Virus record (IMG/VR): IMGVR_UViG_3300017971_000276
Span: 1-64,000 of that record
Length of the DNA stretch: 64,000 nucleotides
Source: a virus
Reading direction: 5' to 3' (one strand)
A program made the translations under genes and the position numbers. Every line of letters begins with the position of its first letter. Positions within the stretch are counted from its first letter, which is position 1. This document shows positions 3,106 to 46,452 of this stretch, piece after piece. The notes under the pieces were generated by a model, which was given only the letters and a program-made list of their open reading frames with translations, made no database searches and had not been told where the DNA came from.

Positions 3106-3903
3106 ATGGGTGGATCTGGTTCAGGAAAGCCTAAAGGCGAATTACTTAGATTAGATGGCCATGAGCTTATTGATGGCAAGATTCAGAAGTCTAAATTCTT
3201 TGATTTTTTAGGGATGGATTTATCTGACTATAGTAATGTTACTATGACTCCAGAACAAGCTCTTAAATTTAAGAATACTGTTGTCAGGATGAAGTATGGA
3301 GTTGCTGCTGCGATCCCAATGATTTGTGGCGGACCAAAGTGTCCGAATAAACTTTGTGCATTTCATGATGGAGGTGGTTATCCTTTAGGAAAACAATGTC
3401 TCTATGAGGTTCGTATGATTCAAGCTCTGACACGAAGTTATATGGAAGACTTGGCAGTTGATCCAGATAGTCCTTCTGAAATGACTCTTATTAATAAATT
3501 AGTCGAATGTGATTTGATTGATTATCGCGCCAACCTTGGCCTATCAGGTGGCGTAGATGAAGAAGCAGCAACTCTTCTTTCTACGTCAGTTGTGGATAAT
3601 GGCAAAACGATGTCTGAGTCTATAGCAGTTCATCCTCTTCTAGATGCTAAAGATCGAGCTAATAGAACTCGTATGCAAATACAAGATGCTTTTGCTGCTA
3701 CACGTAGAGAGAAATATAAAAAAGCTGCAGCTCTTAAAAAGTCAGAAGATACAGATGCATCTACCTTCCTTGCCGAAATCAAGTCTGTATTTGAGGAAAC
3801 TCCTCAGCAAGCAGTCTCATCTCTTGATAAAATTAAAGAAGACGCTAAGAAAGTGTCTGAAGATCTTTCAGTCGTAGATGTAGATTGGAGTGCTGATGAA
3901 TAG
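3106..3903 (+). CDS. Zn-binding packaging-associated protein, candidate terminase small subunit
   Basis: 265 residues. The N-terminus is short and Gly/Ser/Lys-rich (GGSGSGKPKG). A likely zinc site comprises C74, C79, C84, H87 and C98 in the stretch from MICGG to LGKQC. A helical region follows, and an acidic tail ends VDVDWSADE. Phage proteins with a similar Cys cluster and PxGxxC end occur near terminase genes. The location between a terminase-like ATPase and the terminase large subunit favours a DNA-recognition role, but no helix-turn-helix was identified, so the small-subunit call is tentative. Confidence 0.5.
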   Translation: MGGSGSGKPKGELLRLDGHELIDGKIQKSKFFDFLGMDLSDYSNVTMTPEQALKFKNTVVRMKYGVAAAIPMICGGPKCPNKLCAFHDGGGYPLGKQCLYEVRMIQALTRSYMEDLAVDPDSPSEMTLINKLVECDLIDYRANLGLSGGVDEEAATLLSTSVVDNGKTMSESIAVHPLLDAKDRANRTRMQIQDAFAATRREKYKKAAALKKSEDTDASTFLAEIKSVFEETPQQAVSSLDKIKEDAKKVSEDLSVVDVDWSADE

Positions 3904-24254: not shown

Positions 24255-26141
24255 ATGGCATATCCAAATCTTCCAGGAGTAAAACTTTCTAAGAATGATG
24301 GGAATTTGGCTCCTACAGCAGCAGCGAGAGCGCCTCGTGTATTAATTATTGGTACTGCTGGCCAAGGTCAGGGCGATGAACTATTCTTAGTTCCTACAAC
24401 TTCTCAGGCCAAAAGTGAGTTTGGCAATGAAGGAACTTTAATTCGCGGCATGTGGGAAGCTCTTAAAACAGGAGCTGAGGAAGTCGCTCTATATCGTATT
24501 GGTTCTACTTCTGCAGTCCTAGACCATGTTGGTGATTCTGCTGGTTCAGCAGGATATAGGATTGAAACAGTAACTCAAGATGCATCTGCAGGAACAGATT
24601 ATGCTTTGTATTTTGACGATACCTCAGATCGATTGGTTGTTCGGCGCAATACTGACAATCTAGTTGTTTGGGATAACAACCCGTCTAACCCTATTGATCT
24701 ATTTGAAGTAGTAGTGAGTGGGTATAGAGCTGCAGCAGGTGGGCCAGATATTGGTTCTGCTTCCGGTTTTATTAACCTTGCTAGTGTTGATCCGTCAACA
24801 TATGCAGGCACAGAATTTACTGCAGGCACAGATGGCTTAAGTCTTTCTAGAATGGAAATGTATGAAGAGCTATATGTTGCTTACAAGAATCTAATGTCTG
24901 AAGCATTTGATGTTATTGTTCCAATGGATGTCTATTTAGATGACTATAATATAGTTAATCAAGGACACTTTAAAGGAGCAGTTTCTCCTGTAATCCCAGT
25001 CGGTCAGCAATATCCGACAGCTGGAGCATTCTCTCCTACTGTTGATGTTGACTCTCTTGGTAAAGTTTTTGTTGAAGAGTATGAAGGCGAATTTTATTTC
25101 TGGTGGGATACTGATGGAGATGGCGTTGCAGAGGTATTTCCTACTCCAGCAATTGGGTCTTCTAGCTCAACAACAAAGATTGATGGAACGACTTTAACAA
25201 CTGCTGATTTCCATGAAGTTAACTTCGGTTATCAGCTATCTCGTTTTCTGTATGACTATAGTGAAGAGATTGTTGACGCAACTGGTGTTATTGGTGTCCT
25301 TCCTCCCGACAGTAATTCTCTGCGAGATAGAGCTCGTTGGTTAGGACAAGATCCAACATGGACATTAAACACAAACACAGGAGAATATTACATTGCTGCT
25401 CCATCTGCAAATGGGACTGGCTTACTTGGTAATAAGTTTATGGTTGGCCGTTTTGATCATAGAAGCGGAGCGTTTGGTGGCGGAATGATCCTAACTGATA
25501 CTCAGTTTATGGATGGAACAGAACAAGTTGATGACAATAGTATTGCTGTTGATCTTGGTAAATACATTTCTGTTGTTTCTGAGACTGCATTCTTAAGAAA
25601 CAATTGGTATCCTGCTGGCTATCGTGCATCTATTGCATCTTCATATGCAGGATTTTATATTGGTCTTCCTCCATCAAGTGCACCAACGAATAAAAACATT
25701 TCTGGTTCTTCTATCATTTATAAAATGGCAATGGGAGCCTATGATAGTCTAACTGGTGCAGGCTATGTCTCATTACGGAATCGTCCACTTGGTGGAACCG
25801 TAGTAACAGATGCGCCAACAGCAACTCTGCCAAATTCTGACTGGAGACGTTTGTCAACAGTGCGGATTGTTAAAGAAGTTGTAGACAGAATTCGTTCTGG
25901 TCTTGATCCGTTTATTGGAGAAGGAACTGGTGCTTCTGTACGCGCAAGTATGGAAAGTGTTGTCGGAGAGATTCTCCTGCAAGCAAAACGAGATGGCTAT
26001 CTGCAAGATTATAAGGAGTTTAGTATCATTCAGACTCCTCAACAAGAAGTTCTTGGCGTCGTTGAAGTCAATCTGACATTGATTCCAGCGTTTGAGATTC
26101 GCCAGATTAATCTAACAGTTTCACTAAGCAAGTCTGGCTAA
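24255..26141 (+). CDS. Contractile tail sheath protein
   Basis: 628 residues with the N-terminal pattern of phage sheath proteins (YPNLPGVKLSKNDG, then RVLIIGTAGQG), a variable middle domain, and the conserved C-terminal domain: GYRASIASSYAGFYIGLPPSSAPTNK, YVSLRNRPLGG, STVRIVKEVVDRIR. A final strand, EVNLTLIPAFEIRQINLTVSLS, fits the handshake arm linking subunits. The sheath surrounds the tube and contracts to drive injection. AGGAGG precedes the start. It is followed by three tube-fold genes. Confidence 0.9.
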   Translation: MAYPNLPGVKLSKNDGNLAPTAAARAPRVLIIGTAGQGQGDELFLVPTTSQAKSEFGNEGTLIRGMWEALKTGAEEVALYRIGSTSAVLDHVGDSAGSAGYRIETVTQDASAGTDYALYFDDTSDRLVVRRNTDNLVVWDNNPSNPIDLFEVVVSGYRAAAGGPDIGSASGFINLASVDPSTYAGTEFTAGTDGLSLSRMEMYEELYVAYKNLMSEAFDVIVPMDVYLDDYNIVNQGHFKGAVSPVIPVGQQYPTAGAFSPTVDVDSLGKVFVEEYEGEFYFWWDTDGDGVAEVFPTPAIGSSSSTTKIDGTTLTTADFHEVNFGYQLSRFLYDYSEEIVDATGVIGVLPPDSNSLRDRARWLGQDPTWTLNTNTGEYYIAAPSANGTGLLGNKFMVGRFDHRSGAFGGGMILTDTQFMDGTEQVDDNSIAVDLGKYISVVSETAFLRNNWYPAGYRASIASSYAGFYIGLPPSSAPTNKNISGSSIIYKMAMGAYDSLTGAGYVSLRNRPLGGTVVTDAPTATLPNSDWRRLSTVRIVKEVVDRIRSGLDPFIGEGTGASVRASMESVVGEILLQAKRDGYLQDYKEFSIIQTPQQEVLGVVEVNLTLIPAFEIRQINLTVSLSKSG

Positions 26142-30224: not shown

Positions 30225-33200
30225 TTGGTAAACCCTAACCTTGCATATGGGGAGCAACCAAGCATGCCTGGTCAAGGGTTAGGACAAAACCAGGGTAGTT
30301 TGGCTGGTTTAGCTCTTGGAGCTGGTGCGATTGGTGCTGCTGGCTTTATTCCAACAAAAGGCGGTCGATTGTGGGATACCTATCTAGCAGGTATTCGTGC
30401 AGTTGAAACTGGATCCCCTGGTGGGATTCTAAGAACCTTTCGTACTTCTGAATTTCTTTCCCCTTTAGAATCTTATTCTGCTGTCTCAGCAGCTCCTGCC
30501 GATATTGCTCGTGGTAAATATGGCAAATATTTAAAGTCTACATTTGGAGAAGCAAGTAGCTATACTCTAGAACGAACTGGTTTAGCTTTTGGCCAAGTCA
30601 AAGATGCTTCTGGTAAAGTTATTGGCATGGGTCTGCAAATTGAAGCTGGTACTCAAAAGGGTGCAGCTATTGCAGATTTCGCGGCAAGAATAGAAGGAAT
30701 CCAACTTGGTAAATTTCAGTCTTTAAATGATGCTATTCTTCGGAATAAATGGGAGACTTCTAAAACTCCATTGCCTTACCAAGAGTGGCTAAAGACTATA
30801 GAGCCACATCTTCGAAGACAACGTCTTATTCTTGGATCAAAACTTCGAACCAAACTTACTATTGCAGGTAAAGATTTCCAGTTGTCTCAAAGGATGGCTG
30901 GGAATGTTGCAAAAGCAGAAACTCTTGGCAAGCTGCTCAGAGCTAAAGCAGCAACTACAGCCAGTCGTTTAAATATTCTTCTAAGGGCACCTGTTGAGCT
31001 TCCAGGAATTAAAACTCTTGCTGAGAAAGTTCCAGGTCTTCGTTCTCTAGCTGTCAAGCCAGGAACAAGCCTTCAGCTTCTAGGAAGATATACAGGCAAA
31101 GGTCTTGCTGTAGGTGCAGCATGGAAAGGGCTTGAATATGTAGATTATCTAAGAGCAGAAGGTTCTCCATGGGCTCCTGTGTTGGCAACTGCAGGAGGAG
31201 CTGGACTAGGTGCTCTTTTGGCCCGCAAACCGGGGATGAAGTTCTCAAAGGCTGGTTTGATTGCAGGTGCTGCACTTGGTTTGACTGCTGGTATAGCTCC
31301 TAGATTTGAGCATGGAATTATCCATGGTATTGCTTCTATGGCTACTGATGCTAATGTCACGAGAGCTCAATTGTCTCAGACAATGGGGTTCACAGATACG
31401 ATTAGAGAACAAGAACAAATTACTCCTGGGTTTATGGATCTTAAAACAGCTCTTGGTTTCGGAGGAGTCGGAGCCTTAGCAACAGGTCTTGCTGATTACT
31501 TGTCTTTTGTCGGATCTTCTATGACTGCTCGTGTTGCAACAAAAACACCTCTCTCTCATATATTCGAATCTGCCAGAGAGAAAAGAGCAACTAGACTTGC
31601 AGATAAACTTTGGGGTTCTAAGTTTGGTACTGCAATTAAAAAAGTACCAGGACTTAGAAAGTTAACGAATATAAAAAGCCCTATGGCTCTTGGTTTCTTA
31701 GGAGGTATAACGGCATGGGGAGTTGCTGCCACAGCACTTGGAACTCTTTCTGGCAGACCTACTGCTCCTATTGCTGGCCTATTAGGAACTTCAGAAACTC
31801 CAGAAGAATTACAGGCTATCTATTCTGGCGAGAAAGAAGTAGCAATTCGCAAAGGTAGATGGTGGGAATTCGGGAGAAGTACTGCTTTTGAAGGTGGCAG
31901 GATACAATATTATAGACCTCATATGATGGCTCGTTTAAAATCTAGAGCATATCAAAAAGGCATGTATGGGTCTGAAGAAGAAAAATGGGCACATGATCCA
32001 TGGCTAAATCCTATGAAAGCTCTCTTCGGTTCTGATGAATGGAAGTATCATTATGAAGAGAAGTATCAATACGAAAGACCTGCTCCAACAACTGGTACCT
32101 ATGGCGAGAGTGTACCATTCATTGGACCACTAGTTGCTGCTACATTCGGCAAGCTATTTAAGCCTCGGAAGAAAGTCCGTGCAGAAGAGTGGGAACTTGG
32201 AGGAGGACAGTATCTACATCATCAAGATGTTAGAGGGGAAGAAGAGCCTTCTTATATGCTCGGTGGTCTTGGACCAGGAGCCCCTGTTGCTAAAGAAGAT
32301 CCTTCACAACTTCTAAACGAACTAAATTACAGACGCAGAGAAGCTGTTGGTCTTATGGGCTTTATGGAAGGGGCTATTACCAAAGCTGCAATTGGCAGAG
32401 AAGAGTTTTTAGAAAACAAACAAACTCTTGCAGCGATGGGAGGAGAAACAGGAGCAGAATACTGGCTGTGGAAACATATGAATCTTGGTGGAGGGATGGG
32501 TACTACTGAGGCTGTGAGGCGTTTCCTCCCTCGTACAAGAAGCTATCTTGATACCTATAATCCTCTACGCAATGCAATGCCTTCTTGGGTACCAGAGGAT
32601 TATTTCTTAGACTTACGTACAGGGAATCCATTTGAGAAGATTCCTGAAGCCGAGCTTAGACTCCCTGGAGAAGGATATGCTGCTTTGCATCCTGAGGTAG
32701 AAGGTCTGTCTCCTGAAGAGTATCCCCTTGCTCATAGGGTAAAGATTCTTGGCGATATTGCTATGTATAGCAAAGAGTATGGTATTGCACTATCTCAAGC
32801 CAAACGTAATTTAAATAATCTATCTCAAGAAGAAGTTGCTATGGTTCGAGAAACTGAAAGACAAGTTAAAGAGAAGAAGAAGAGAAGAGGATTCCAAGAA
32901 TATGTATTTTCTGGCGACCAGCTTGAAACAATGGACGTAACAGTATCTGAGATTATTAGTCCTCGTAGGTTCCGGACTAAAGAACTTGGGGATGTAATGA
33001 TTGATGTCCCAGGGATTGGAGCTATCAAAGATACTGCTGGTGCTTTAGAATTTGCGAAGGAGACTCTTCTTGGCCGACAGATCCAAATCCAGACTCCTTC
33101 TCTAGAGTCTAGAAGACTAACTATGAGTACTACTGGTCCTGTAATGAAAGCCGCACCAATGGTTGGGGGAACAGATTATGGACAGTTGTTATCTAGTGAA

Positions 33201-35564
33201 GGTCTTGCGGCACATAAAGAATTAGAAGATGAGTTTAAGAGAATTAGATTTACAGGCTCTGAACAGCTTGCTGGCAAATTGGGCGAATATATTACACATG
33301 GAATTGAAACTCCTCTTGAGTATTTAACTCCTTTGTCTCCTGCTTCTAAATTAATTCGTCAACGTTCTGCTATTGAAGAATATGTTGCAACAGAAGCAAT
33401 TGGTACAAGTAGTTCTTTCTGGGATAAGCCTATAGAGAATTTCCTGAAGCCTGCATTAAACATGGCCAAATATAAAGCAGGGATTACTGAAATCCCTGAA
33501 GAAGTAGAACAAAGAAGAGATATCCAAGAACATTTTGATATGCTGAAATGGGTAAAAGCTTCTCGTCTCGAAGCAAAAGCTCGTCAATATGGAGACTTGC
33601 AAGCAGCGTCAGGATTTAAAAGAACTAAAGAAAGAACTTTGTTTGGTGTTGATGTTTTTAAAAGCCCAACTAATATAATGAGAGCTCTTCCCCGTCGAGA
33701 AAGAGATTTCTTTGCTGAGTTTTCTAATGCCAAAACAGAAGAAGACAGAGCACAAATTCTTCAATTAATTCCAGAGAATGAACGTAGGATTTATGTCTCT
33801 CAATGGATGAGGCAACAAGAAAGAACTGCATATGCTAAAAGAACAGCAAAACTTTCTAACGAACAAGACGATAGAGTTATTGCAACAACGGCTTTAATGC
33901 GTAAGGGTGAAGGTTTCTCTTACACTAACAAACAAGAAGAACAATGGATGAACGAGACTCAAGGACAGGTTGAGTTCGATGAATGGCTAAGAGAACAGAA
34001 AGCAGAAGAGTATTTTCAAACTCATTCCCTTCCTGGTGCTGATTGGTTAGGCTGGTGCCTACCTGCAAACCAAGAAGTTTTAATATCAAACTATACTTTT
34101 TCGCATGCTTGTGATATAAAACCAGGAGACAAAGTGGTTACTTTACAAGGAGAGAACATTGTGAAAAAAGTATTTAAGAGAGAAATTAAAGAAGCAATTA
34201 GGACTCTAACAGTTTGTCATAATAGTGTTTATTGTATGAGTGCAACTAATAATCATTTAGTTCTGGGTATTGAAACAAAACCATGTAAATATAATTTGAC
34301 TCCTAATTCGGTCTGTACTCATGAAAGTAATTCTTGGAAATGTCAGTTCTGTACAACAAAACATTATCAGTCTTATTCTGCTCGTTGGATGCCAATAGGA
34401 GAAGTTACAACAGACATCTATTTGCCAATTCCATTATTAAAACATGCAGATAAGGATCCTACTATAGATATTGGATCTCTAGATTGCTTCCCAAAAAACA
34501 CAGTAGTTTCTGATGATTGTCTTAGACCTAAAAGCGGAAGGATTAAACCGGTTAATCGTTTCATTGCATTGAATGAATCTGTCTGCTGGTTGATTGGTTA
34601 CTATCTTGCAGAAGGTAATGTGTGGGCAGTTGGAGATAGGATGCGTGGGGTTCAGTTTACTGCTAATATTAATGAAGTCTCAATCTTAGAATTAGCACAA
34701 AAAATTATCAAAGAGCACTTTGGTCTTAATAGTGAAATTCGTTATAAGAAGAATCCAAAATCAAAGAGTGCTTATCTGCAAGTTGCAAGTAGTATATTCG
34801 GATGGCTTATTGACCATTGGGTGGGAAGATTTTGTGATAAAAAATTTGCACCATCTTGGCTTCAAGATATAACTTATAATAGCCAAGTAGCATTACTAGA
34901 TGGACTTAATACAGGAGACGCTTCAAAAGATCATCGTAACAGACTTGCTTTAGCAAATAGAGAATTATGTACTATGGCCAAAAGACTCTATGAAGCTCAA
35001 GGGATTCCTGCCAGTTTACATGGTCCTAAGAAGATAGAGAACAGGAAAGACCAATATGTTGTAGAGCCTTTAAGAAAGTCTTTATCTGCATTTGTTGGTA
35101 GTAACTTTATTGCTTATCGTATTAAAGATATAGAAGAGACAGAATACCAAGGAACTGTATTCGATTTTGAAGTAGAACAAAATCATATGTATTGTTCTCC
35201 AATTGGAATATACCATAATAGCCCATCAGTAGACCTTGAAGATGTTAAGTTGCAATATGTAGAGATGGCTGGTCTTGATCACCATGATTTTGATCTTTGG
35301 GGACAACGCAAACGTGCTCTTGCCAGAAAGCCATATATCAATCCAACTCTTATTGGAGAGATGGAAGAAGCAAAAGAACAATATCAAGATTCTTGGAAGG
35401 TAGCAGCAAACTCTGATGTATTGTCTCGTATGTTCTCTGAACATAAAGCTGAAGTAATAATGTCAAAACTAGATGCAAACTTACCAGAAGACAGATACAA
35501 TGTTCAAGTGCAAGATGGAAGAAGAGATCTTGTTGAGCAAGCTTACAAACAACTTGGAGCATAA
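30225..35564 (+). CDS. Giant virion protein in tape-measure position, interrupted by an intein
   Basis: 1779 residues as translated, 1391 after removal of the intein (residues 1278-1665). The start is TTG with AAGGAGG 9 bases upstream. The N-terminus carries Gly/Ala hydrophobic segments (SLAGLALGAGAIGAAGFIP) and others recur at about residues 310-390 and 405-420. The remainder is helical and charged. Position between tail chaperones and baseplate hub suggests the tape measure, but long coiled coils are lacking. The extein around the junction (DWLGW then SPSVDLEDVKL) appears to be a compact motif. It may also be an injected protein. Confidence 0.6.
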   Translation: MVNPNLAYGEQPSMPGQGLGQNQGSLAGLALGAGAIGAAGFIPTKGGRLWDTYLAGIRAVETGSPGGILRTFRTSEFLSPLESYSAVSAAPADIARGKYGKYLKSTFGEASSYTLERTGLAFGQVKDASGKVIGMGLQIEAGTQKGAAIADFAARIEGIQLGKFQSLNDAILRNKWETSKTPLPYQEWLKTIEPHLRRQRLILGSKLRTKLTIAGKDFQLSQRMAGNVAKAETLGKLLRAKAATTASRLNILLRAPVELPGIKTLAEKVPGLRSLAVKPGTSLQLLGRYTGKGLAVGAAWKGLEYVDYLRAEGSPWAPVLATAGGAGLGALLARKPGMKFSKAGLIAGAALGLTAGIAPRFEHGIIHGIASMATDANVTRAQLSQTMGFTDTIREQEQITPGFMDLKTALGFGGVGALATGLADYLSFVGSSMTARVATKTPLSHIFESAREKRATRLADKLWGSKFGTAIKKVPGLRKLTNIKSPMALGFLGGITAWGVAATALGTLSGRPTAPIAGLLGTSETPEELQAIYSGEKEVAIRKGRWWEFGRSTAFEGGRIQYYRPHMMARLKSRAYQKGMYGSEEEKWAHDPWLNPMKALFGSDEWKYHYEEKYQYERPAPTTGTYGESVPFIGPLVAATFGKLFKPRKKVRAEEWELGGGQYLHHQDVRGEEEPSYMLGGLGPGAPVAKEDPSQLLNELNYRRREAVGLMGFMEGAITKAAIGREEFLENKQTLAAMGGETGAEYWLWKHMNLGGGMGTTEAVRRFLPRTRSYLDTYNPLRNAMPSWVPEDYFLDLRTGNPFEKIPEAELRLPGEGYAALHPEVEGLSPEEYPLAHRVKILGDIAMYSKEYGIALSQAKRNLNNLSQEEVAMVRETERQVKEKKKRRGFQEYVFSGDQLETMDVTVSEIISPRRFRTKELGDVMIDVPGIGAIKDTAGALEFAKETLLGRQIQIQTPSLESRRLTMSTTGPVMKAAPMVGGTDYGQLLSSEGLAAHKELEDEFKRIRFTGSEQLAGKLGEYITHGIETPLEYLTPLSPASKLIRQRSAIEEYVATEAIGTSSSFWDKPIENFLKPALNMAKYKAGITEIPEEVEQRRDIQEHFDMLKWVKASRLEAKARQYGDLQAASGFKRTKERTLFGVDVFKSPTNIMRALPRRERDFFAEFSNAKTEEDRAQILQLIPENERRIYVSQWMRQQERTAYAKRTAKLSNEQDDRVIATTALMRKGEGFSYTNKQEEQWMNETQGQVEFDEWLREQKAEEYFQTHSLPGADWLGWCLPANQEVLISNYTFSHACDIKPGDKVVTLQGENIVKKVFKREIKEAIRTLTVCHNSVYCMSATNNHLVLGIETKPCKYNLTPNSVCTHESNSWKCQFCTTKHYQSYSARWMPIGEVTTDIYLPIPLLKHADKDPTIDIGSLDCFPKNTVVSDDCLRPKSGRIKPVNRFIALNESVCWLIGYYLAEGNVWAVGDRMRGVQFTANINEVSILELAQKIIKEHFGLNSEIRYKKNPKSKSAYLQVASSIFGWLIDHWVGRFCDKKFAPSWLQDITYNSQVALLDGLNTGDASKDHRNRLALANRELCTMAKRLYEAQGIPASLHGPKKIENRKDQYVVEPLRKSLSAFVGSNFIAYRIKDIEETEYQGTVFDFEVEQNHMYCSPIGIYHNSPSVDLEDVKLQYVEMAGLDHHDFDLWGQRKRALARKPYINPTLIGEMEEAKEQYQDSWKVAANSDVLSRMFSEHKAEVIMSKLDANLPEDRYNVQVQDGRRDLVEQAYKQLGA
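34056..35219 (+). mobile_element. LAGLIDADG-type intein
   Basis: 388 residues. It begins with Cys (block A, CLPANQEVLI) and ends with HN before extein Ser (block G; GIYHN then S). Block B has SATNNHLVLG with the TxxH-like NxH pattern, and block F is VFDFEVEQNHMYCS. The centre has two homing-endonuclease helices: WLIGYYLAEGNVW (about residue 1455) and LLDGLNTGDAS (about 1556), with E and D at the catalytic positions. All splicing residues are present, so class 1 splicing and an active endonuclease are plausible. Confidence 0.9.
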
Positions 35565-35568
35565 TTAA

Positions 35569-38500
35569 ATGCCATTTAATAATGACGAACGATCTCCTCT
35601 ATGGGGTCTTGCTGCTGGTGGAGCTCTTGCTGGTGGGGTCGGATATGCTTTTCTTAAGAACAGGAGTTCTTTAGCTCGCGCTTGGAAGATGGGAAGTCAA
35701 GATGTTACTGGTCCTCCTTCTGGTCTTATTGACGAGATAGCTGGATTTCAAACTGGCAAGATTCCAGTAGCACAAGGAGCAATATTTGATGAAGCAATGG
35801 AAGCAACTGCTGCTTCTTTTGAACGTCGTGTAGGATTGACTTCAGCAAAGCAAGACATTCAAGCAGCTGCATATGAAGCTATTCTTGGTGGAGGGCAAGC
35901 CTCTCATGAGGAAGCTATTTCGGCAATAAAAAACATCTATGCACAAGAGAATGCGACAGGAGCATATAGAGCAGCTGTTGATGTTATTGGCCAACAAGGT
36001 GGAGACATTGCTACTTTTGAATCCAGATTTGGTGCATTTGCAACAACTACAGATAGAGCTTCTATGTTGGCCGGAACAGAAGTCTCTTTAGGTGGTTATG
36101 GAGAGATGCCAATTAGTTCTACTCTTCTTCGTAATCTTCCAGAAGAAGCACAGCAGCGTGCCTTGGCACACCAAAAACATATTGGGCAAGTTGCTGCTGG
36201 TAAATTTGATGTCTCTTGGGATTATAAAGTTGTTAAAGATATAATTGGAGGCAAAGAGATAGAAACACCTATGGCAATTGTCTCAGCGGGGAAGCAACGT
36301 CTTGGAGAAATTCCTTTAGCAAGCACAGGTCTTACATATAGTGGCAAAGGTCTCGCCTCTAGACATTTTACTCGTAGAGGTTATATGGCAGGTGGAACTC
36401 AACTGAGTTTTGCAGAATTATATGAAAGAAATATAACTGATGCTATCAGTAAAGCTCATACACATGCAGAATTAAAACAGAATGTACTTAATTCTCATAG
36501 AATTCTTATTGAACAAATGAACGATAGAGATTCTTCTCGACGTGCAGCTGCTGTTTTTGGGAGTCCTTTTATGGCTCCTGGTGGTCTTGCTCAGAAGAGA
36601 CTTATGACATATGAAGCTGTCCCGTATGAACAACTTGATCCAGAAGACATAGAAAACCTTCTTGGCTCTAAAACAGGCCTTTATCCTTACACCTCACCTG
36701 GAGCTGCTGGCAAAGGAACCTTAACCACAAGAAATGTTTCTGAAGAATTGTTTGGCCCTCTTGGCCGATTGGTTTCTGCTGAACAACGACCAACTCAATT
36801 TATAAGACCAGAATGGGGGGTTACAGCTGAAGCGAAGGGAGAAGCTAGAGGTTTCGCTGGTTTGTTCGGTCAGAAGTATCAACGATTTGATCGCAAAATC
36901 CAAGGAGCTAGATATCGTAGTTATTTATATGGAGGGAAAGGAGCAAGTGCTCTCGATCCCGGAGCTTATAGTGCTCCTCAGCTGACTACCTTTTATGCGA
37001 AACCTGCAACAAAAGGATATGGTCTTGGCTATCAATCAGAAGCTCTAAATAAAATACTTGCTGCAGAAGAGGGGGTTATCTCTGGCAATGTAACAAACAT
37101 GATGGAATATGAACGTGTTGTTCAGAAGAAAATTGCTCTTGATGAAGGCCTAAGAGTCAATAAAGATTTATTAAGGCAATTCCAAGATCGTCGCTTAGGA
37201 GCTGGCCCAATACAATTAGAGGGAGCTTTGCCTTCTGGATTTATGGGAATTGAGAGAGGAACTGGCAGAGAGGTTGCTGGAGAAATTATTGGAGCTGAGC
37301 TCACAGGCAAAAATGAAGCTAATATTTTCTTGAGGGAGAGAAAACAACTTTCTGAAAATCAAATGTGGAAGTTTTTCTCTGAAGAAAATAAGTTTATGGC
37401 TGCAGCAGCAAGTGAAGGAAGGATGACAGAAGTTCTTGAAGCAGCTGGTGCTGAAAGAGCAATCGCTGGCCAACAGATAGAGGCTGTGTTCTCTGGCAAA
37501 CTTGTGGCTAGAAATAAGATGGCTCTTATTACCCAACAGACAGAAGCAGCATCTATGTTCTTAGGTCAAAAGCTTGATATGGGTGCGATACAAATGACTC
37601 CTCAGATTCAAGCCTTTTTAAATGATCCTTCAGCTGCTCTAGACGTTGCAGGGAAGATGAGACATGGTGGTGCCAACGCGGATATCCAAATTCAAAAGAG
37701 CCTAATGGGTCTAACTAAAGGCTGGGGCTTCTCTAATAGAGAGCTTGGCCTTACCTTCGGTCTTGCTCCTGAAGAAGCTCTTGAGTCTGGAGTCCTTACA
37801 GCAAGACAGAGAATGGCTGTAAGAGAATCTGCTGGAGTTATTGGCCTTGGTAAAGGTCGTCTTGGCGACATTGCAACAGAGGGCGGAGCTGGTCGTTGGG
37901 GTTCTTTTGAACAAACTGGTTTTAGAGCTTTGTCTATGAAAGGTGAAGTTGGCCAAAGATATGCTTATGAATTATCAAGGCGTATTTCCGGCAAAGGAGA
38001 ACTAGATCCAGCTAACAAAATGATTGAGTCTCTCCTTGGTGAAGAAGGTATGATCGCTGGATTACGAAGAGGACAAGTTCCTAACATTACTGATATTGGT
38101 GCAAAAGAATTAGTTCAACAAGAAGGTCGATATGTTGGTCTCGGACAAAAGATTAAAGCATTTGGTGGCTCTGACGTAATGTATGTTCCAGGTCTTAGTG
38201 AAGCTCCTGGTATCATGGAAGATATTATTACTCCTCGTGGGGAACGTGTCCGCTCCCCGTTGGTAAGAGAAATGACTTCATTCCAGTCTTTGTTAAGAAG
38301 GGGCAAAGCTTCTTCTGAAGAGATTGAACTTGCAGCAGAATCTTTAAGGAAAATTGCAGTTCAAACATCAGAGGCTCAAGCTGCGGCAAGAGGTAAAATT
38401 ATTGGTTCTAAAGTTCTAACAGGCATGCGTAGGACTTTTGAAGAGGATGCAGATGCTTTTCGTATCTCTGGCCAAATGGGCGAAGAGATGTTTGAAGATC

Positions 38501-39972
38501 TTATGGGCCGAGCAGCTACAGAGGAGCAGGCTAATTTTCTGCGCGAGCAAAGAGATCTTTTCCGGAAAGGCAAGACTATGACTGGTGGGATGTGGCGGCA
38601 TCCAACTACTGGCCCTGAATCTTTTCAGTTTGTAAAGTTTAAGAAAGATGCTCGTATTGCAAATGGCATGGTTGCTGCACCAACACAATTTGGCAAGCTT
38701 CAATTCCAAAGTGGAGAAAATCTTCCTGTCGATGTATCTGCTATGGTTGGTTTTAAAGGTGACTTCGATAAAGATACATTCGTTCTGTCTGCTATCTCTA
38801 ATAGACGAACGAGCGACATGGCTCGTCGCTCAATAGATAACAAAATGAGAGCAGATTATTCTAAATATTTGTTTAACCATTATTCAATGAAAGATGCTAT
38901 TGATGGCCGAGTTGGAAAGAAAGCAATTCTAGACATGACTTCTGATCAAGCTCTTCAAGAAGGTTACAGAAGATTATCCACTGCTAAAACAGCGACAGGA
39001 CGTGTAAATATTGCTTTGCAAAAACTTAAAATTGGTGTTCAGAGTTCGGCTCCTGAACAATATCGTCCTTTGGCTGAAATGTTTTGGCATCTTGAAGAAG
39101 CTGCTATTAGTGGCAAGCATGGTGTTCTTAGCTCTGATTTATATCAAGCTATTGCTCAGTCTGTAGAAGAAGGTGGGCCTTCAGGAATCTCTCGAATGGA
39201 AAATGTAATGAGAGAGTTAATGGGAGAGGAAAGAACTATTTCTGGGACAATTACAGATGCTTTTGGCAACGTTCGGCAACATTCTTTAGAGTATAATCCT
39301 CGTCAATGGGCTGAGATGGCAATTGCTTCACATGATGCTGTAAGCCAAGATGTAGATATTGCCATGAGATCCGTTGCAGCTGCGAGGGGAAGGAACCTTG
39401 ACCAAAGAACTTTAAGTGATCTTGTAGAAATGTATCATGCCCGTAGAACTGGGTCGGTTGATTTTGCACAAGCGGTCATGGAAGCTAATGCTGCGAATGC
39501 AGATCAGTTTACAACTAAAGGGACTCGTCTTCTTAGAAAAGCACAAATTAAAACAAGGAGTGTGTTTAGTGCAGTTAAGAGAGCAGGAAAACCATTGTTA
39601 GCAGGAGCAGGGATTGCAGCAGGAGTTATGCTTATGGCTCCCAGTACATCTGGAACACTTAGATCCCCTGAAGGCTCAAGCGCTGGCAGAGGAATGACTC
39701 CTGATGATTATGGTCCTCCTGGTGGCCAAGGCATGCTACCTCCACCTCCTGGAATGAATGCTTCTCCAAGGGCTTACGATCTGGGTGGCGGCAAAATGAC
39801 TTCTCATGCTAATATAAGAATGCGGATTAATGATCTTGACTCCTCGTCTAGAGATTTTATGAGAAGCGCTAGGCAGCTTAGCAATGGAGGTCAAGTTAAT
39901 ATTAGAACCCGAGACGACAGGTCTATTCTTGACCCCCGAATGCTTGCCAATAAGATCCATGAGAGGCTGTAA
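35569..39972 (+). CDS. Giant virion protein with RNA-polymerase-like DxDxD motif
   Basis: 1467 residues. The N-terminus has a short Gly/Ala hydrophobic segment (LAAGGALAGGVGYAF). At 1065-1069 lies D-F-D-K-D, preceded by a WRHPTTGPES segment and VSAMVGFKG, and followed by TFVLSAI. This resembles the catalytic loop of double-psi beta-barrel RNA polymerases (DxDGD), in which three Asp hold the metal; the usual Gly is Lys here. Near the C-terminus a hydrophobic helix (KPLLAGAGIAAGVMLMA) is followed by a Pro/Gly-rich linker and a basic end (RTRDDRSILDPRMLANK). An injected polymerase is a hypothesis; a structural role remains possible. Confidence 0.45.
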   Translation: MPFNNDERSPLWGLAAGGALAGGVGYAFLKNRSSLARAWKMGSQDVTGPPSGLIDEIAGFQTGKIPVAQGAIFDEAMEATAASFERRVGLTSAKQDIQAAAYEAILGGGQASHEEAISAIKNIYAQENATGAYRAAVDVIGQQGGDIATFESRFGAFATTTDRASMLAGTEVSLGGYGEMPISSTLLRNLPEEAQQRALAHQKHIGQVAAGKFDVSWDYKVVKDIIGGKEIETPMAIVSAGKQRLGEIPLASTGLTYSGKGLASRHFTRRGYMAGGTQLSFAELYERNITDAISKAHTHAELKQNVLNSHRILIEQMNDRDSSRRAAAVFGSPFMAPGGLAQKRLMTYEAVPYEQLDPEDIENLLGSKTGLYPYTSPGAAGKGTLTTRNVSEELFGPLGRLVSAEQRPTQFIRPEWGVTAEAKGEARGFAGLFGQKYQRFDRKIQGARYRSYLYGGKGASALDPGAYSAPQLTTFYAKPATKGYGLGYQSEALNKILAAEEGVISGNVTNMMEYERVVQKKIALDEGLRVNKDLLRQFQDRRLGAGPIQLEGALPSGFMGIERGTGREVAGEIIGAELTGKNEANIFLRERKQLSENQMWKFFSEENKFMAAAASEGRMTEVLEAAGAERAIAGQQIEAVFSGKLVARNKMALITQQTEAASMFLGQKLDMGAIQMTPQIQAFLNDPSAALDVAGKMRHGGANADIQIQKSLMGLTKGWGFSNRELGLTFGLAPEEALESGVLTARQRMAVRESAGVIGLGKGRLGDIATEGGAGRWGSFEQTGFRALSMKGEVGQRYAYELSRRISGKGELDPANKMIESLLGEEGMIAGLRRGQVPNITDIGAKELVQQEGRYVGLGQKIKAFGGSDVMYVPGLSEAPGIMEDIITPRGERVRSPLVREMTSFQSLLRRGKASSEEIELAAESLRKIAVQTSEAQAAARGKIIGSKVLTGMRRTFEEDADAFRISGQMGEEMFEDLMGRAATEEQANFLREQRDLFRKGKTMTGGMWRHPTTGPESFQFVKFKKDARIANGMVAAPTQFGKLQFQSGENLPVDVSAMVGFKGDFDKDTFVLSAISNRRTSDMARRSIDNKMRADYSKYLFNHYSMKDAIDGRVGKKAILDMTSDQALQEGYRRLSTAKTATGRVNIALQKLKIGVQSSAPEQYRPLAEMFWHLEEAAISGKHGVLSSDLYQAIAQSVEEGGPSGISRMENVMRELMGEERTISGTITDAFGNVRQHSLEYNPRQWAEMAIASHDAVSQDVDIAMRSVAAARGRNLDQRTLSDLVEMYHARRTGSVDFAQAVMEANAANADQFTTKGTRLLRKAQIKTRSVFSAVKRAGKPLLAGAGIAAGVMLMAPSTSGTLRSPEGSSAGRGMTPDDYGPPGGQGMLPPPPGMNASPRAYDLGGGKMTSHANIRMRINDLDSSSRDFMRSARQLSNGGQVNIRTRDDRSILDPRMLANKIHERL

Positions 39973-39975
39973 TAA

Positions 39976-42900
39976 ATGACTGATTCTGATACACTAAAAC
40001 AATTTAGCGACTATAGAATAGGGACTAGAGATCGTGAAGATTATGAAGAAGGATTTGGTTTGTATGATGATTGGGCACTAGGAGTCTCAGATCCTAATTT
40101 GCCTGACGGGACAAACAGCAAAGAGCTATTAGAAGAAGCTATTAATTCTGTCACTCCACAAGATGTATTTACTACTTCTAGTTTTTCTACTTTTCCAGAT
40201 AGCTTTTTGATTGTTAATGATATTTATTTTACTGATGTTCCTACAGCCGCTATATCTATTGATTCTCAAACAGATGTTTTTGTTGGCGAGACTCTAAGGT
40301 CTCCTGCTCCAGTAATTGATTCTGAAGGTCGTCAAGATTTTGTCTTAAGGCTCAGTCTTCCCTTCCCTCCTGGGGAAGCACAATCTATTAAGCTTAAAAG
40401 ACTAGTCTCTCAAATCTCAAAACATCCATTCTTGTTTATTTATAATAACAATATTAAACAAAAACTAGATGTTCCTGAAAATGAATCTACTGTTTTTGTG
40501 CTAGAGGCAGCAACATTACGTTCTACTCAAGAGACTGTTGGCCTTATCGTGTTAGATATGCAGTTGCATTATTTTAACTACAAGCCATTTAGTAAGCATT
40601 ATTATTTTAATACTGCTCTTCCTGGATATACAGAAGAACCAGATCAAGTTTCTAGGCATGAAGATATAGAAATTGATCTTACTGAATTTGGCGGATATGA
40701 AGCTTCTGAGCATACAATATCTAAGCTTGCTGACCGAACAAGAAATAATATTCGACAAGGTATTAAAAACTTAACCAGAACTAAAAGGGAAAATGTTCCC
40801 GTTAATATGCCATCAGAGTCTGACGCATGGATGTATTTTGCTAATCATCTTGAGACTCAAAGTGAAGCTATTACAGGAATCCCTTCTGACTATATTGGTT
40901 TTACTCTTAGAGAGTATATGCATTTTAATCCACCTGATTCTAAATATGCAGACGGAGAGAGCACATTAGCTGACTTAATGAACTCTCGCTATGAAGAGGT
41001 AAGTCCTCTTTATCGTGCAGACAAATGGCAAGAAGCTCTTGCAAAGAAACATGATGAAGAAACTAAATATAGTGTAGAAGGGACAACTGCACAAGAGAGA
41101 CGTTACCAAGAAGAGATAGACCTTTCTCTCGAAGGGGATATTACTGCTCCTGTTAAATTTACTAACCCTCGTGGCCAAAAATTAACTATTCAACTTCTTG
41201 ATGAGAATGGGAATGTGCCAACGAATGCCAGATATGAACTTACAAAGTTTGCAGACAGAAGGAAACTGACAAAAGATGAAGCAGTCTTCCTCTCCCCTGA
41301 TTTGATCCGCAAACTTGCTCTTGTCGCGAAACATTTCTCAGGAAGAACAATTGAAATTATTTCAACACAAAGAGATCCAGGATGGGTGAAGAAACGAATT
41401 CCTCGACCATCTAATTGGAAGCCTAGTTATCATATCCAAGGCAAAGCGATAGACTTTCGGGTTAGAGGCATTCCTAACCAATCTCTGTATGAATATATAA
41501 AAACATTACCGAATACTGGCGCTGGGTTTTATCCCAATTCTGTCTTCTGTCATATGGATGCACGAAACAGTAGTTTTTTCTGGGTTGATTTATCTGGCAA
41601 AGGCGAAAACTCGAACTATGCACTAAAGACAAATAATGTAAGAGAACTTAATAAATACCTAAATGATCATTATCGTCTCGCAGGAGATTCTGTTTCCTCA
41701 GAAATTGATTCAGATATTGAAGAGATTGAGTCTAATTTAGGCACAGACAAAGACAGGGAAAAACAGGCTAAAGATATTGCACAACAGAAAGGCAATGTAG
41801 CTGATTTAATAGAGAGACAGAAAGAGCTAAACAAGCACAAAACAGAAGCTGACTATCAAAAAGCACAACATCGTAAAGAACAAAAGACAGAGAAGAATAA
41901 AAATGACAGAATGGCATGGATTGAAAGTATTGAAAAACAACACGGAGTCCATTATTATTACGATGATCCAAAAGTAAGAAATGTTTTTTATAGAGATATG
42001 GGTCTAAATATTTCTAGTGATCCTACTGTCCAAAGATCAGGAGCTGCATTAAAAAACATGGTGTGTTCTGCAATCTCTGTATCCTTTGGGCATCGAATTG
42101 CTCCAATCCCTCTTCTTAGTCAGTCTTTCTATACTTATCAATTTTTGGGATCCGGTAACAAAAGTGGGCAGATTGTGCTAACTTTTGCAGGTGAAGAAGG
42201 CAAGACGTCTGCCCAATTGGTTAAGCGGTTAATTTGGAAAGCTAGAGATAACGCCAGAGACTTTACATCTGTGATTAAGAGTGTTGGATCAATTGGCTTA
42301 GAGCATACTGCTTTTGGAACAGGCGAACAGAATACAATCATGGCTCTTGCTAATATTGATAATATTGTTGTAACAGATATCAAAGAGTCTAATTCCCCAG
42401 AAGGCGCTGACAAGCATCAATTGGTTATTGAATTTATTGCTCAAGAATTTGCAGAAGAGAAACTTGAAGAAAGGTTTACTACTACTTTAGATACGAAGAA
42501 GAGAATAATTAGAGCAATATTACAACATGTAAAATCAAGACAACCAAAAAATGCCTTGTCTGGGGCAGTTCAACATAGAGCAGGTCGTTCGACAGATCCA
42601 TTAGACCTAAATGCAATCTTTGTTTCTCACGATCTTGTAAGTGCCAATACCTCTTCTGAAGGAAAACCTTACCGGCTTATTGGTGACACTCCTTTATGGG
42701 TTGCTAGATTGCTTGTAGAGGCAGCAAACATTTGCAAGGAAGCTAATGATAAGATGCCTCCTGTTAATTGGCAGGTTTCAAAAGGGGCTAGTGCAACATG
42801 GCAAGAAGTATATAAAGCTTGGGGCGCTGGCAGTATCATGCGTGGCAAAACAGCTAATATCGATTCTTCTGAACGGAACGCTACTGGTATTCAAGCAGCT

Positions 42901-45900
42901 ATAGATCAACCAGATATTGACCGTCAAAATAATACGGCTAGGGAATATTCAAAAGATAAAGACAGTGCCTCTTTAGTTGCTGATAGTGTTCAAGCATCTA
43001 GAACTCGTGAGCAAAATGGCATTTATGATAAGAATGGAGGGCCAAAAACAAATAAGTTTCATAAGCAAGTTTTTGACGAATGGCTTTCTAAAATGAATCT
43101 TATTGTGAATGAGTTTAAGACTCATTTAAATGATGGAGAAATAGTTGATAAATATTTCTCTGGTGTTTTAGATAATCTGACAGCAGTGATAGCTGGAGAT
43201 ATTTCTTCTTGTTATCTAGATATCGGATTGCCTAATGTTCCAGGAGCACCAGTTCCTTTGCCTCCAGAATTTTTCTTATATGATGATTCCCATGAAGATC
43301 CATTGGTTTCAAACATGACAGACGATAGCAATATGGAAAGGTTATTGAAACGACATGTCGAAACAGAGATGGCTTCAATCAAACATTATATAGATGAAAG
43401 TTTTCTTGGTGGTTCCTATTTGTCAAAGAACCTTCCGAGAATTCTAGAGCAGAGAGCCTCAGACCATGAACGTTTTGAAGGAGAGAGGAACTTTTCTACA
43501 TACTATAACTATTTTACTCATGGAGCTAAGTCTTGGGAGCCTATATATACTCGTAGGGACGAACAAGATCCTGCTATTAAAGGTGTTCGTCAGTGGCTAG
43601 ATTCCGTTGCGAGTCATTATGGCTCAGCCGATGACAAAGAACAAAGAATCAATTACCTGAAGAATATTATAGAGCTATCCCCTTATATCGCAAGCGGTAG
43701 GCATTGGGAGACTCCTCTAACTGAGCAAGACAATTCTGCTCTTGTAAGATCATTGTATAAAGATGCTGAAGACGTATTGGCCTTCGGGCCAAATCCGATT
43801 TATGGACATGTAGACGCAACAATGAGAGGACAGCTAGAAGATCCTGCAAACGAGCGCAGAGCCCAGGCAATTGAGAATAAAAAAGCTGTTGAAGCTATGA
43901 AGAAACCAATTCCTCCTCAATACAAGGCAGGGCTATTCCTTACTGGCAAACATGGTGAAGGGCCAAGAGAATCAATGGAGCTTCCAGGACGTACAGTCCT
44001 TGCAGATGGTGCAGTTACGTTTGGTCAAACAGAAGCAGAGAAGAAAGATAGCAAACCAAGTTTCTTTGATGAGCTTGTTCAAATGGGTAAAGATTTTGCA
44101 GATGCAGATTCTTCTGGTGCAGTTGGCGGGTTTGTGTTGAATGCACTGTCTGGCGGTAGTAGCCTTGGTGGCTCCTTGTCAGGATTGTACCAAGGCTCGA
44201 AGATTGTAGAGAAGGCAGCAGGAGCTATTGATGCATATGCATTAGATGCAGGAGCTGCTAAATATGATCATGCTTTCTCAAAGATGGCACAAGAAGATGA
44301 GATAAAACAAATTGCTCAAACGGCTAGCCGAACTGCTCTTGGACGTAGGCGAAATGATCTGTCTATGAGAAGAGCCTATCCTACTTTTAAAATATATTTT
44401 ATCGAAGATGATAGTGGAGAGACTGAATTAATTGATGACGGCATCCTGAGGGCTTTTGATGACTTCTATAGTTATTCTGCCATCCAAGAAATCAAAGTTA
44501 CTCGTTCTAGACATATTGCTGCAGACATGGCTGTCATTAGGATGACAAATATTGGAGGCCTCTTATTAAGAAAACGCTTTGGAGAGAATGATAAAGACTT
44601 AACGAAGTATGGTATCAATGCAGAGAAACAAGGAATCTTTGCAGATACAGAGCGAGAACATCCTTTTGAAAAGATGATTCTACAGGACGGTATTAAAGTT
44701 CAAATCCGTTTGGGTTATGCTGCTAACCCAGAACATCTTGAGACTGTTTTCCTTGGCCAAATTGTAGAGGTAGGGCTTGCTGAGAGAGGAAAGATAATTG
44801 AGATTGCTTGCCAGGGATATGGTGCAGAATTAGAATCTGTTGAACTTGGCCCCCTAGAGAATGGAAAGTATTTCTTGTCTTCTCAACAAGTGTTGTCTGG
44901 TGCGATCATACAAGATTCTATTGCTAATTTTGGAAGACAAGATAGATTCAATCGAGACAACCCTGCTGCTATGCGTCATTCTTGGACTGGAGGCCGAGCG
45001 ACCGGATTCTTTAGTGGGTTGAGTCCTTCTAATATTCATGAAGAGTGGTCGGACAGAGGTTTAGAAACTATTTTCAATAGATACCAGTTCTTAAACTACC
45101 AACAAGATGACAATATTTATGCTCCTCCTCCTGAGACTTATTCTACTAGCTGGACTAAATTTTGGAACAATGCTTGTATCTATCGCCCGCTAAAACAAAC
45201 TCCGTGGCAAATCTTCAAAGAACACGAGCTAAGACATCCTGGCTATATTTCTCTTGCTGTTCCTTATGGGCATTCTCCAAGAATGACAATGTTCTTTGGT
45301 AGTAAAATGCAACATTATTGGAGCAAGCCTCCTTCTTCATTAGAAATTGAATTAGCACGTGGAGCCAAGAACGATATTGTTCGGATGAGGAAACAAGGTC
45401 TTGAATTGTTTGAGAAAGGCATGGTTAAAGAACTTGTAAAATTTGTTGGCAAGTCTCCTAAATTAGGGGCAGCTATCTTTAACGATGTTATGACTATTGG
45501 TACTAGATATGATACCGGTTTCGCTATTGGCGAATTATTTGGTAGATATGTCCCGTTCCGTAATTATCATTATTTTGATAGCTATCATCATATCTTAAAA
45601 AACAATATCCGATCTTCAGTTGATGGTACATTTAATGAAGTTGAGATATATTACACAGAGGATGAGAATGATATCATAGACCCAGACAGAGACGATCTGG
45701 AAGAGAATGTCGCTTCTGTCGCTAGGGGATATGAAGGTTTGCTGGCAGTTAAACTAGATGAAAATATTCCAGAATCTGCTATTCGTTCTTTCCGTGGTGA
45801 ATATCCCTCTTGTGTTACTGTTGATATGGCACGAAGATATGCTCAAGGCATCTTTGGAAGAACATTAAGAGATGCTTACAAAGGGGAACTTTGTGTTATT

Positions 45901-46452
45901 GGAGACGAGAAGCTTAAGCCATATGACGTGTGTTATCTCAATGATGCTTCAATCAACATGACTGGTCCAATTGAAGTAGAATCTGTAACACATATCTTCA
46001 ACAGAGACAATGGTTTCGTTTCTATTATTACTCCAGATCTTTGTTTAGAAGTAAATGATTATTATACTTCTAGTGTCTTTGATGTAACTGCTTCTGCTAT
46101 GAACTTTACTTTTGCAGACTGGGTTACTGGTGCGAATATATTAAAAGGCGTTGGTTTTCTTGGGTTGCTTGCTGGTGTAAAATTTATGACATGGACACAA
46201 GATGGCGCTCCTGTTGTGGCAACGCCACTTACATTAGGCGGAAAGCCCTTTATAAGCAATTCTCTTGGTCCAAATAGAGTTTCATTGTTCTTCTCTCTAA
46301 TGGGCAAGTGGAATCAATATTGGGATGATCTTGGTGATGCATGGAGAAAATTTGATGTGTCTGAAGCTTTCTTCGAAAACAGAGTTAATCTAGTTAAGGG
46401 ATTCTATGAAGCCCTTGGTTCTGGTGCACAAGGAGGATTAGAGGAGGCGTAA
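39976..46452 (+). CDS. Baseplate hub protein with M15-type peptidase domain
   Basis: 2158 residues. The N-terminal 230 residues are beta-rich. Residues about 430-545 match the M15/DUF882-type murein endopeptidase: SYHIQGKAIDFRV with H486 and D493, and VFCHMDAR with H526, the Zn ligands, plus FFWVDLSGKG. A charged helical linker follows (about 585-650). Later segments, VQIRLGYAANPEHLETVF and GQIVEVGLAERGKIIEIACQGYGAEL (about 1570-1620), resemble hub proteins of the gp27/Mu gp44 type. The C-terminus has a hydrophobic stretch. It probably digests peptidoglycan as the tail penetrates. Confidence 0.75.
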   Translation: MTDSDTLKQFSDYRIGTRDREDYEEGFGLYDDWALGVSDPNLPDGTNSKELLEEAINSVTPQDVFTTSSFSTFPDSFLIVNDIYFTDVPTAAISIDSQTDVFVGETLRSPAPVIDSEGRQDFVLRLSLPFPPGEAQSIKLKRLVSQISKHPFLFIYNNNIKQKLDVPENESTVFVLEAATLRSTQETVGLIVLDMQLHYFNYKPFSKHYYFNTALPGYTEEPDQVSRHEDIEIDLTEFGGYEASEHTISKLADRTRNNIRQGIKNLTRTKRENVPVNMPSESDAWMYFANHLETQSEAITGIPSDYIGFTLREYMHFNPPDSKYADGESTLADLMNSRYEEVSPLYRADKWQEALAKKHDEETKYSVEGTTAQERRYQEEIDLSLEGDITAPVKFTNPRGQKLTIQLLDENGNVPTNARYELTKFADRRKLTKDEAVFLSPDLIRKLALVAKHFSGRTIEIISTQRDPGWVKKRIPRPSNWKPSYHIQGKAIDFRVRGIPNQSLYEYIKTLPNTGAGFYPNSVFCHMDARNSSFFWVDLSGKGENSNYALKTNNVRELNKYLNDHYRLAGDSVSSEIDSDIEEIESNLGTDKDREKQAKDIAQQKGNVADLIERQKELNKHKTEADYQKAQHRKEQKTEKNKNDRMAWIESIEKQHGVHYYYDDPKVRNVFYRDMGLNISSDPTVQRSGAALKNMVCSAISVSFGHRIAPIPLLSQSFYTYQFLGSGNKSGQIVLTFAGEEGKTSAQLVKRLIWKARDNARDFTSVIKSVGSIGLEHTAFGTGEQNTIMALANIDNIVVTDIKESNSPEGADKHQLVIEFIAQEFAEEKLEERFTTTLDTKKRIIRAILQHVKSRQPKNALSGAVQHRAGRSTDPLDLNAIFVSHDLVSANTSSEGKPYRLIGDTPLWVARLLVEAANICKEANDKMPPVNWQVSKGASATWQEVYKAWGAGSIMRGKTANIDSSERNATGIQAAIDQPDIDRQNNTAREYSKDKDSASLVADSVQASRTREQNGIYDKNGGPKTNKFHKQVFDEWLSKMNLIVNEFKTHLNDGEIVDKYFSGVLDNLTAVIAGDISSCYLDIGLPNVPGAPVPLPPEFFLYDDSHEDPLVSNMTDDSNMERLLKRHVETEMASIKHYIDESFLGGSYLSKNLPRILEQRASDHERFEGERNFSTYYNYFTHGAKSWEPIYTRRDEQDPAIKGVRQWLDSVASHYGSADDKEQRINYLKNIIELSPYIASGRHWETPLTEQDNSALVRSLYKDAEDVLAFGPNPIYGHVDATMRGQLEDPANERRAQAIENKKAVEAMKKPIPPQYKAGLFLTGKHGEGPRESMELPGRTVLADGAVTFGQTEAEKKDSKPSFFDELVQMGKDFADADSSGAVGGFVLNALSGGSSLGGSLSGLYQGSKIVEKAAGAIDAYALDAGAAKYDHAFSKMAQEDEIKQIAQTASRTALGRRRNDLSMRRAYPTFKIYFIEDDSGETELIDDGILRAFDDFYSYSAIQEIKVTRSRHIAADMAVIRMTNIGGLLLRKRFGENDKDLTKYGINAEKQGIFADTEREHPFEKMILQDGIKVQIRLGYAANPEHLETVFLGQIVEVGLAERGKIIEIACQGYGAELESVELGPLENGKYFLSSQQVLSGAIIQDSIANFGRQDRFNRDNPAAMRHSWTGGRATGFFSGLSPSNIHEEWSDRGLETIFNRYQFLNYQQDDNIYAPPPETYSTSWTKFWNNACIYRPLKQTPWQIFKEHELRHPGYISLAVPYGHSPRMTMFFGSKMQHYWSKPPSSLEIELARGAKNDIVRMRKQGLELFEKGMVKELVKFVGKSPKLGAAIFNDVMTIGTRYDTGFAIGELFGRYVPFRNYHYFDSYHHILKNNIRSSVDGTFNEVEIYYTEDENDIIDPDRDDLEENVASVARGYEGLLAVKLDENIPESAIRSFRGEYPSCVTVDMARRYAQGIFGRTLRDAYKGELCVIGDEKLKPYDVCYLNDASINMTGPIEVESVTHIFNRDNGFVSIITPDLCLEVNDYYTSSVFDVTASAMNFTFADWVTGANILKGVGFLGLLAGVKFMTWTQDGAPVVATPLTLGGKPFISNSLGPNRVSLFFSLMGKWNQYWDDLGDAWRKFDVSEAFFENRVNLVKGFYEALGSGAQGGLEEA

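Follow-up and report, generated by a model that had tools for sequence, protein, structure and literature searches.

Results

Gene order around the candidate gene

The window analyzed here, the 64-kb stretch at positions 1 to 64,000 of IMG/VR record IMGVR_UViG_3300017971_000276 from an uncultured virus, makes up the structural half of a phage with a contractile tail. Its genes run in the order large terminase, portal, major head protein, tail sheath, two paralogous tube-like proteins, a 1779-aa protein, the 1467-aa protein under study, a 2158-aa hub/lysin with an M15 peptidase, baseplate wedge, and fibers. The contractile tail follows from the presence of the tail sheath gene (24255-26141, + strand; PHROGs tail sheath, 7.5e-67). 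Upstream of the large terminase gene, a 943-aa protein (3903-6734) shows an N-terminal Cas4-like exonuclease match and a C-terminal ABC1/protein-kinase-like match.

The 1467-aa protein, a candidate virion RNA polymerase, is encoded by a single open reading frame of the tail module (35569-39972, + strand), found in a single copy in six virus records, and its homologs are of similar length and lie in the same gene order. The upstream neighbor (30225-35564, + strand) encodes the 1779-aa protein, which is orthologous by hhalign to ME3 gp35 and MTATph1 CDS0026 (E = 1e-48 to 1e-52) and to KLEB27-3 gp031 plus gp033 (E = 4e-16 and 8e-35). The downstream neighbor (39976-46452, + strand) encodes the 2158-aa baseplate hub or tail lysin, recognized by Pfam, PHROGs, and tblastn. 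Three isolated jumbo myophages, Acinetobacter ME3, Bacillus KLEB27-3, and Moorella MTATph1, have matching hub (by tblastn) and sheath proteins. Orthology and shared order of the sheath, the gp35-type structural protein, and the hub place the window's tail module in the lineage of 0305phi8-36 and ME3. Because both flanking genes are orthologous, the gene between them occupies a slot that is common to the four lineages. The original prediction had placed the candidate next to tape-measure and hub genes. The hub is confirmed, whereas the upstream protein is an ortholog of ME3 gp35 and not an established tape measure.

The 1779-aa protein, a highly conserved structural protein adjoining the candidate gene, contains an intein of about 388 aa (approximately residues 1278-1665; Pfam match). 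One homolog (L002, 4626-10001) has an insert at the site of this intein, another (L008, 2145-9998) carries two additional long insertions, at sites equivalent to residues 551 and 759 of the 1779-aa protein, and the other homologs are free of insertions. Such repeated insertion into the family suggests a functionally critical protein.

Catalytic signature and its conservation

The signature of two-barrel polymerases is defined by three Asp residues alone, DxDxD (PMC10770324, PMC7824862). Both motifs originally reported in the 1467-residue protein are exact: D1065-F-D-K-D1069 lies at 38761-38775 and the preceding R-x-P-T-x-G-x-E-S segment, R1010-H-P-T-T-G-P-E-S1018, at 38596-38622, just outside the interval first quoted (38650-38800). 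These and all other features within the gene are on the + strand. We propose that the former is the Mg2+-binding catalytic triad of a double-psi beta-barrel, DPBB-A, and the latter the counterpart of the R-x-P-T loop. The 1467-aa protein thus has an R-x-P loop approximately 35 to 55 residues before a D-x-D-x-D triad, the segment beginning 55 residues upstream of the triad. An R-x-P in matching register ahead of the triad is also present in E. coli rpoC (NRAPTLHR), in the crAss polymerases, and in P23-45 gp96 and gp64. By sequence comparison, crAss-like polymerases have DFDID or DFDVD, YR[IV]P[TN], and a Ser at the matching distance; Carjivirus has RIPTEGKQS (YRIPTEGKQS) against RHPTTGPES in the 1467-aa protein. 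The Lys at the fourth motif position had been regarded as making the match imperfect, but this is no objection: Gly is dispensable there, since in crAss virion polymerases this residue is V or I, the motif reading DFD[V/I]D.

DxDxD alone is unremarkable, occurring in 8 of 47 window proteins against 4.8 expected from shuffled proteomes. The window holds one case of R-x-P with D[FY]DxD 30 to 60 aa behind it, a pairing that 2.3% of shuffled proteomes also contained; for the crAss-derived form R-x-P-[TN]-x4-S ... DFDxD, the figure was 0 of 3000 shuffles. Conservation was assessed over ten distinct full-length or near-full-length sequences, the window protein and nine IMG/VR homologs with 39 to 64% identity to it. 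R1010, P1012, G1015, S1018, Q1020, G1064, D1065, D1067, and D1069 are invariant in all ten, while the fourth position of DFDxD (residue 1068) varies among K, R, and N. When ME3 gp36 (18% identical over the region) is added, 14 of 273 columns remain invariant, and nine of these fall within the two motifs.

A candidate lysine motif of DPBB-B, W600-K601-F-F-S-E-x-x-K608 (37366-37392), is proposed from conservation, with K601 and K608 invariant in 10/10 sequences. Its counterpart in ME3 gp36, LKFFSVGSKS, is in register in two of the three MAFFT modes and has K-F-F-S-x-x-x-K in common with the invariant W-K601-x-F-S-E-x-x-K608; in KLEB27-3 gp034, which has TKFVSDAGHR, the motif is only partly kept. 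Hydropathy reveals an N-terminal hydrophobic segment at residues 11-29 (35599-35655) and a C-terminal one at residues 1339-1361 (39583-39651). The latter is found, again by hydropathy, in the homologs tested, ME3 gp36, and KLEB27-3 gp034, and ME3 gp36 has an N-terminal hydrophobic segment at 25-47. A module of about 55 aa (39802-39960) forms the C terminus of both the 1467-aa protein and KLEB27-3 gp034 (26% identity; hhalign P = 0.02).

These features bear on the reading that the 1467-aa protein is only a tape measure or pilot, with DFDKD forming a loop of structural or Ca2+-binding function and R-x-P arising by coincidence. The hydrophobic segments near both termini are in keeping with a protein of the tail or of ejection; chance often yields DxDxD by itself, and FG-GAP-type Ca2+ loops elsewhere contain GDFDxD. 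In the 1467-aa protein, however, the motif is not followed by the GDG repeat typical of such loops. Among 80 stretches screened from a pattern scan of genome contigs, the eight that carry the motif pair in frame proved to be FG-GAP-like or due to chance.

The same slot in isolated phages

The protein in this slot of ME3, gp36 (1603 aa), reads SREPAQGTMSSQ ... GGDHDQD, and that of KLEB27-3, gp034 (2434 aa; L031 17004-24308), reads NRYPTINQSTIQA ... KADYDGD, which is near the rpoC pattern NRAPTLHRLGIQAF ... NADFDGD. Both motifs of both proteins were in register with the window family in every MAFFT run (three modes, full lengths, unguided). Among nine phage records, KLEB27-3 gp034 alone matched Pfam RNA_pol_Rpb1_2 (PF00623), with E = 7e-5 per genome and 0.015 per protein, below the curated cutoff. 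Neither protein is annotated as a polymerase, and KLEB27-3 gp034 is labeled "structural protein" in the deposited record. A literature search found no description of a polymerase in the slot between the gp35-type protein and the hub, and a similar protein at the same gene position in related isolated phages has apparently gone unrecognized until now.

MTATph1 keeps the flanking orthologs, while its slot protein (CDS0027, L030 18513-22442) is without DxDxD and matches RNase_T (DEDDh exonuclease, E = 5e-5). The coding sequence in the slot is broken up by genes for a transposase and an IstB-like ATPase (L030 22539-24781), and CDS0031, beyond the insertion sequence, is the C-terminal module and resembles the C terminus of KLEB27-3 gp034. 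It may be that MTATph1 has lost the polymerase core from this slot. The original prediction had turned on whether homologs lack the three Asp residues: none does among the close homologs, ME3, and KLEB27-3, but the MTATph1 slot protein does. Residues 68-262 of KLEB27-3 gp034 are common to CDS0027, being the region that matches RNase_T in MTATph1, and this exonuclease-like region precedes the polymerase-like part; to judge from the sequences, exonuclease and polymerase may be fused in one KLEB27-3 tail protein.

A slot lacking the motif in MTATph1 is in keeping with a tape measure or pilot and nothing more. Such a protein would nevertheless leave unexplained why R-x-P-x-x-G-x-x-S-x-Q and D-x-D-x-D are retained at 18% identity and why the KLEB27-3 counterpart matches RNA_pol_Rpb1_2.

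Sequence and profile searches

Searches of Pfam, PHROG, NCBIfam, and PDB sequences gave no match for the 1467-aa family. The silence of Pfam is no argument against a polymerase, since phi14:2 gp66 is likewise without any Pfam match. Whole-family hhalign comparisons with the crAss, gp96, gp64, ME3, and KLEB27-3 proteins were not significant. When the catalytic region was compared with known polymerases, only cr55_1 and rpoC came near the tail of the empirical null, and profile-profile scores against most individual known polymerases were within the noise of random windows. Conversely, the window family was not recovered when an HMM of known DPBB-A regions was run against about 4,000 open reading frames. 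With the window-family profile, the known polymerases taken together outscored other long phage open reading frames (p = 0.005) as well as shuffled versions of themselves (p = 0.0005), a significance that is inflated by the mutual dependence of the crAss sequences. Profile similarity between known polymerase families is itself reported to be mostly not significant beyond the DxDxD region (PMC10770324), and we regard significant profile similarity as a practical, weak criterion between distant families rather than a defining one.

No relative of the 1467-aa protein was found by tblastn of annotated phages or in bacterial and archaeal genome contigs, and no family member was among the 80 of 100 listed matches screened from a pattern scan of genome contigs. 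No second polymerase-like paralog was found in these records, several of which are incomplete.

The very strong divergence from all known polymerases might indicate a descendant of a two-barrel polymerase that is now catalytically dead and kept as a tail scaffold, and loss of the motif from the slot does occur, as seen in MTATph1. We consider this very unlikely: the Asp triad and the R-x-P loop are invariant in homologs down to 39% identity, which would be needless in a dead enzyme.

Predicted structure

AlphaFold2 models of residues 190-1330 (10 sequences) and 928-1200 (11 sequences) reached pLDDT values of 53 and 46, respectively, and owing to this low confidence they are unusable as proof of fold; a double-psi barrel is not seen in either low-confidence model. 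Locally, strand 963-966 and helix 968-980 are predicted at a pLDDT of about 75 to 82. They belong to residues 940-982 (GSKVLTGMRR..FRISGQMGEEMFEDL; 38386-38514), the proposed first strands and helix of DPBB-A, which by eye seem to resemble rpoC and KLEB27-3 gp034. The order predicted near the motif in these low-confidence models, strand 963-966, helices 968-980 and 985-999, strand 1004-1009, and strands 1019-1055, would in our reading fit the expectation for DPBB-A. Residues 1136-1158 (LSTAKTATGRVNIALQKLKIGVQ; 38974-39042) are a candidate bridge helix; they are conserved and predicted to be helical at low confidence, and the resemblance to a bridge helix is one judged by eye.

In Foldseek, RNA polymerase chains filled the first 27 places among the PDB matches of the 273-aa model. 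They came from the enzymes of phiKZ, AR9, plastids, cyanobacteria, and bacteria, and none was individually significant (best E = 0.13); the larger low-confidence model had the AR9 polymerase as its top match (E = 0.038, prob 0.89). As many of the polymerase matches are copies of one protein and the amino acid motif contributes to the score, we treat these model-based matches as supporting evidence only. A search of viral folds in BFVD gave only long, low-quality matches. Foldseek polymerase chains are also left unexplained if the protein is a tape measure or pilot alone, a reading that we consider unlikely on balance.

Discussion

In our view, the 1467-aa protein is likely to be a two-barrel RNA polymerase made of one chain and carried in the tail of a contractile-tailed phage related to 0305phi8-36 and ME3. 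It would probably represent a new and highly divergent two-barrel lineage among virion RNA polymerases. The RNA polymerase reading of the original prediction is supported by the invariance of the motifs, the motif pair in ME3 and KLEB27-3, the beta'-like Pfam match, and the Foldseek matches, against which stands a family profile similarity that is not significant.

In the mechanism that we envisage, residues ~940-1085 would form DPBB-A, with Asp1065, Asp1067, and Asp1069 holding the catalytic Mg2+; the upstream barrel at ~510-615 would form DPBB-B, with Lys601 and Lys608 as candidate residues; and the segment near 1136-1158 would be the bridge helix. With the hydrophobic segments near its two termini serving as anchors or for insertion, the protein would be stored inside the tail tube or at the tube's end. 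It would enter the cell with the DNA and transcribe the first phage genes before the host RNA polymerase is needed. With no second polymerase found, later genes would depend on the host polymerase or on an unrecognized enzyme.

We infer virion packaging from the gene position and from the "structural protein" label of the KLEB27-3 counterpart. Another two-barrel polymerase, a PolD-like DNA polymerase or an RNA-dependent one, or a polymerase made in the cell and not packaged, would share the signature, which alone cannot separate these enzymes; PolD and the RNA-interference polymerases also have the two barrels (PMC10770324, PMC7824862). The gene, however, lies inside a late structural module, between two structural genes, its KLEB27-3 counterpart is called structural, and there was no PF05183 (RdRP) match. 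We judge these readings very unlikely.

A packaged RNA polymerase may also have a role in the tail itself. The ME3 record links gp35 to 0305phi8-36 YP_001429636 and gp37 to YP_001429638, the hub. In 0305phi8-36 the tape measure was assigned to orf146, mainly by tail length, the hub is orf147, and alignment of orf146 with its counterpart in a relative was confined to the final 60 residues (PMC2147016). As orf146 directly precedes orf147, the 1467-aa protein would sit in the assigned tape-measure slot. This gene order also suits the reading as a tape measure or pilot only. Tentatively, we raise the possibility, which falls short of being probable, that in the whole 0305phi8-36-like jumbo lineage the gene in this slot encodes a single-chain two-barrel virion RNA polymerase that is also the tail-length or pilot protein. 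If true, this would be a second, very divergent union of polymerase and tape measure after P23-45, and the link between the two seen in that phage would be a recurring design.

In a survey of 224 jumbo phages, an own RNA polymerase was found only in the phiKZ-like group and in two YonO-carrying phages (PMC7824862), so that no packaged polymerase was reported for the 0305phi8-36-like lineage. If our reading is true, packaged polymerases are more widespread, having been overlooked because few catalytic residues are recognizable, and the family represents a new branch of two-barrel polymerases. The isolated phages ME3 and KLEB27-3 allow the polymerase idea to be tested directly.

The nearest counterparts are ME3 gp36 and KLEB27-3 gp034, which are like the 1467-aa protein in slot, flanking orthologs, motif register, and C-terminal hydrophobic segment. 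They differ in sequence (about 18% identity), in the triad itself (DHDQD in ME3, DYDGD in KLEB27-3), and, in the case of KLEB27-3 gp034, by an extra N-terminal region resembling an exonuclease. Through ME3, the tail module of the window belongs to the lineage of 0305phi8-36, whose gp146 (tape measure) is by gene order the positional counterpart of the 1467-aa protein; its YonO-like polymerase, gp99, differs in lying outside the tail module. phiKZ and AR9 are likewise myophages with a packaged polymerase, and their polymerase chains are Foldseek neighbors of the low-confidence models, yet their virion and non-virion polymerases are multisubunit enzymes split over four or five polypeptides, as against one here.

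The crAss virion polymerase, of which a crAss-like member from phi14:2 has a solved structure (6VR4) and is an RNA polymerase (PMC10770324), is like the 1467-aa protein a single-chain giant. In this family, to which phi14:2 gp66 (AGO48955) belongs, the DFD[V/I]D motif is without Gly and the R-x-P-T-x-x-x-x-S register is identical. In contrast to gp66, the 1467-aa protein is shorter, and the two have no significant sequence similarity. Crassvirales are podoviruses, whereas a tail sheath is present here, which places the window outside the crAss-like family. In P23-45, the virion RNA polymerase gp96 and the tape measure form one fused protein (PMC10770324), which resembles the 1467-aa protein in being a giant tail protein with DxDxD and an upstream R-x-P, a tape-measure position, and hydrophobic segments. 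P23-45 is a siphophage with a 5002-aa polymerase and tape measure, while here a myophage encodes 1467 aa, and gp96 has G at the fourth motif residue where K or R stands here, with no profile similarity found. Like the 1467-aa protein, gp96 was found by DxDxD alone, its sequence similarity being undetectable.
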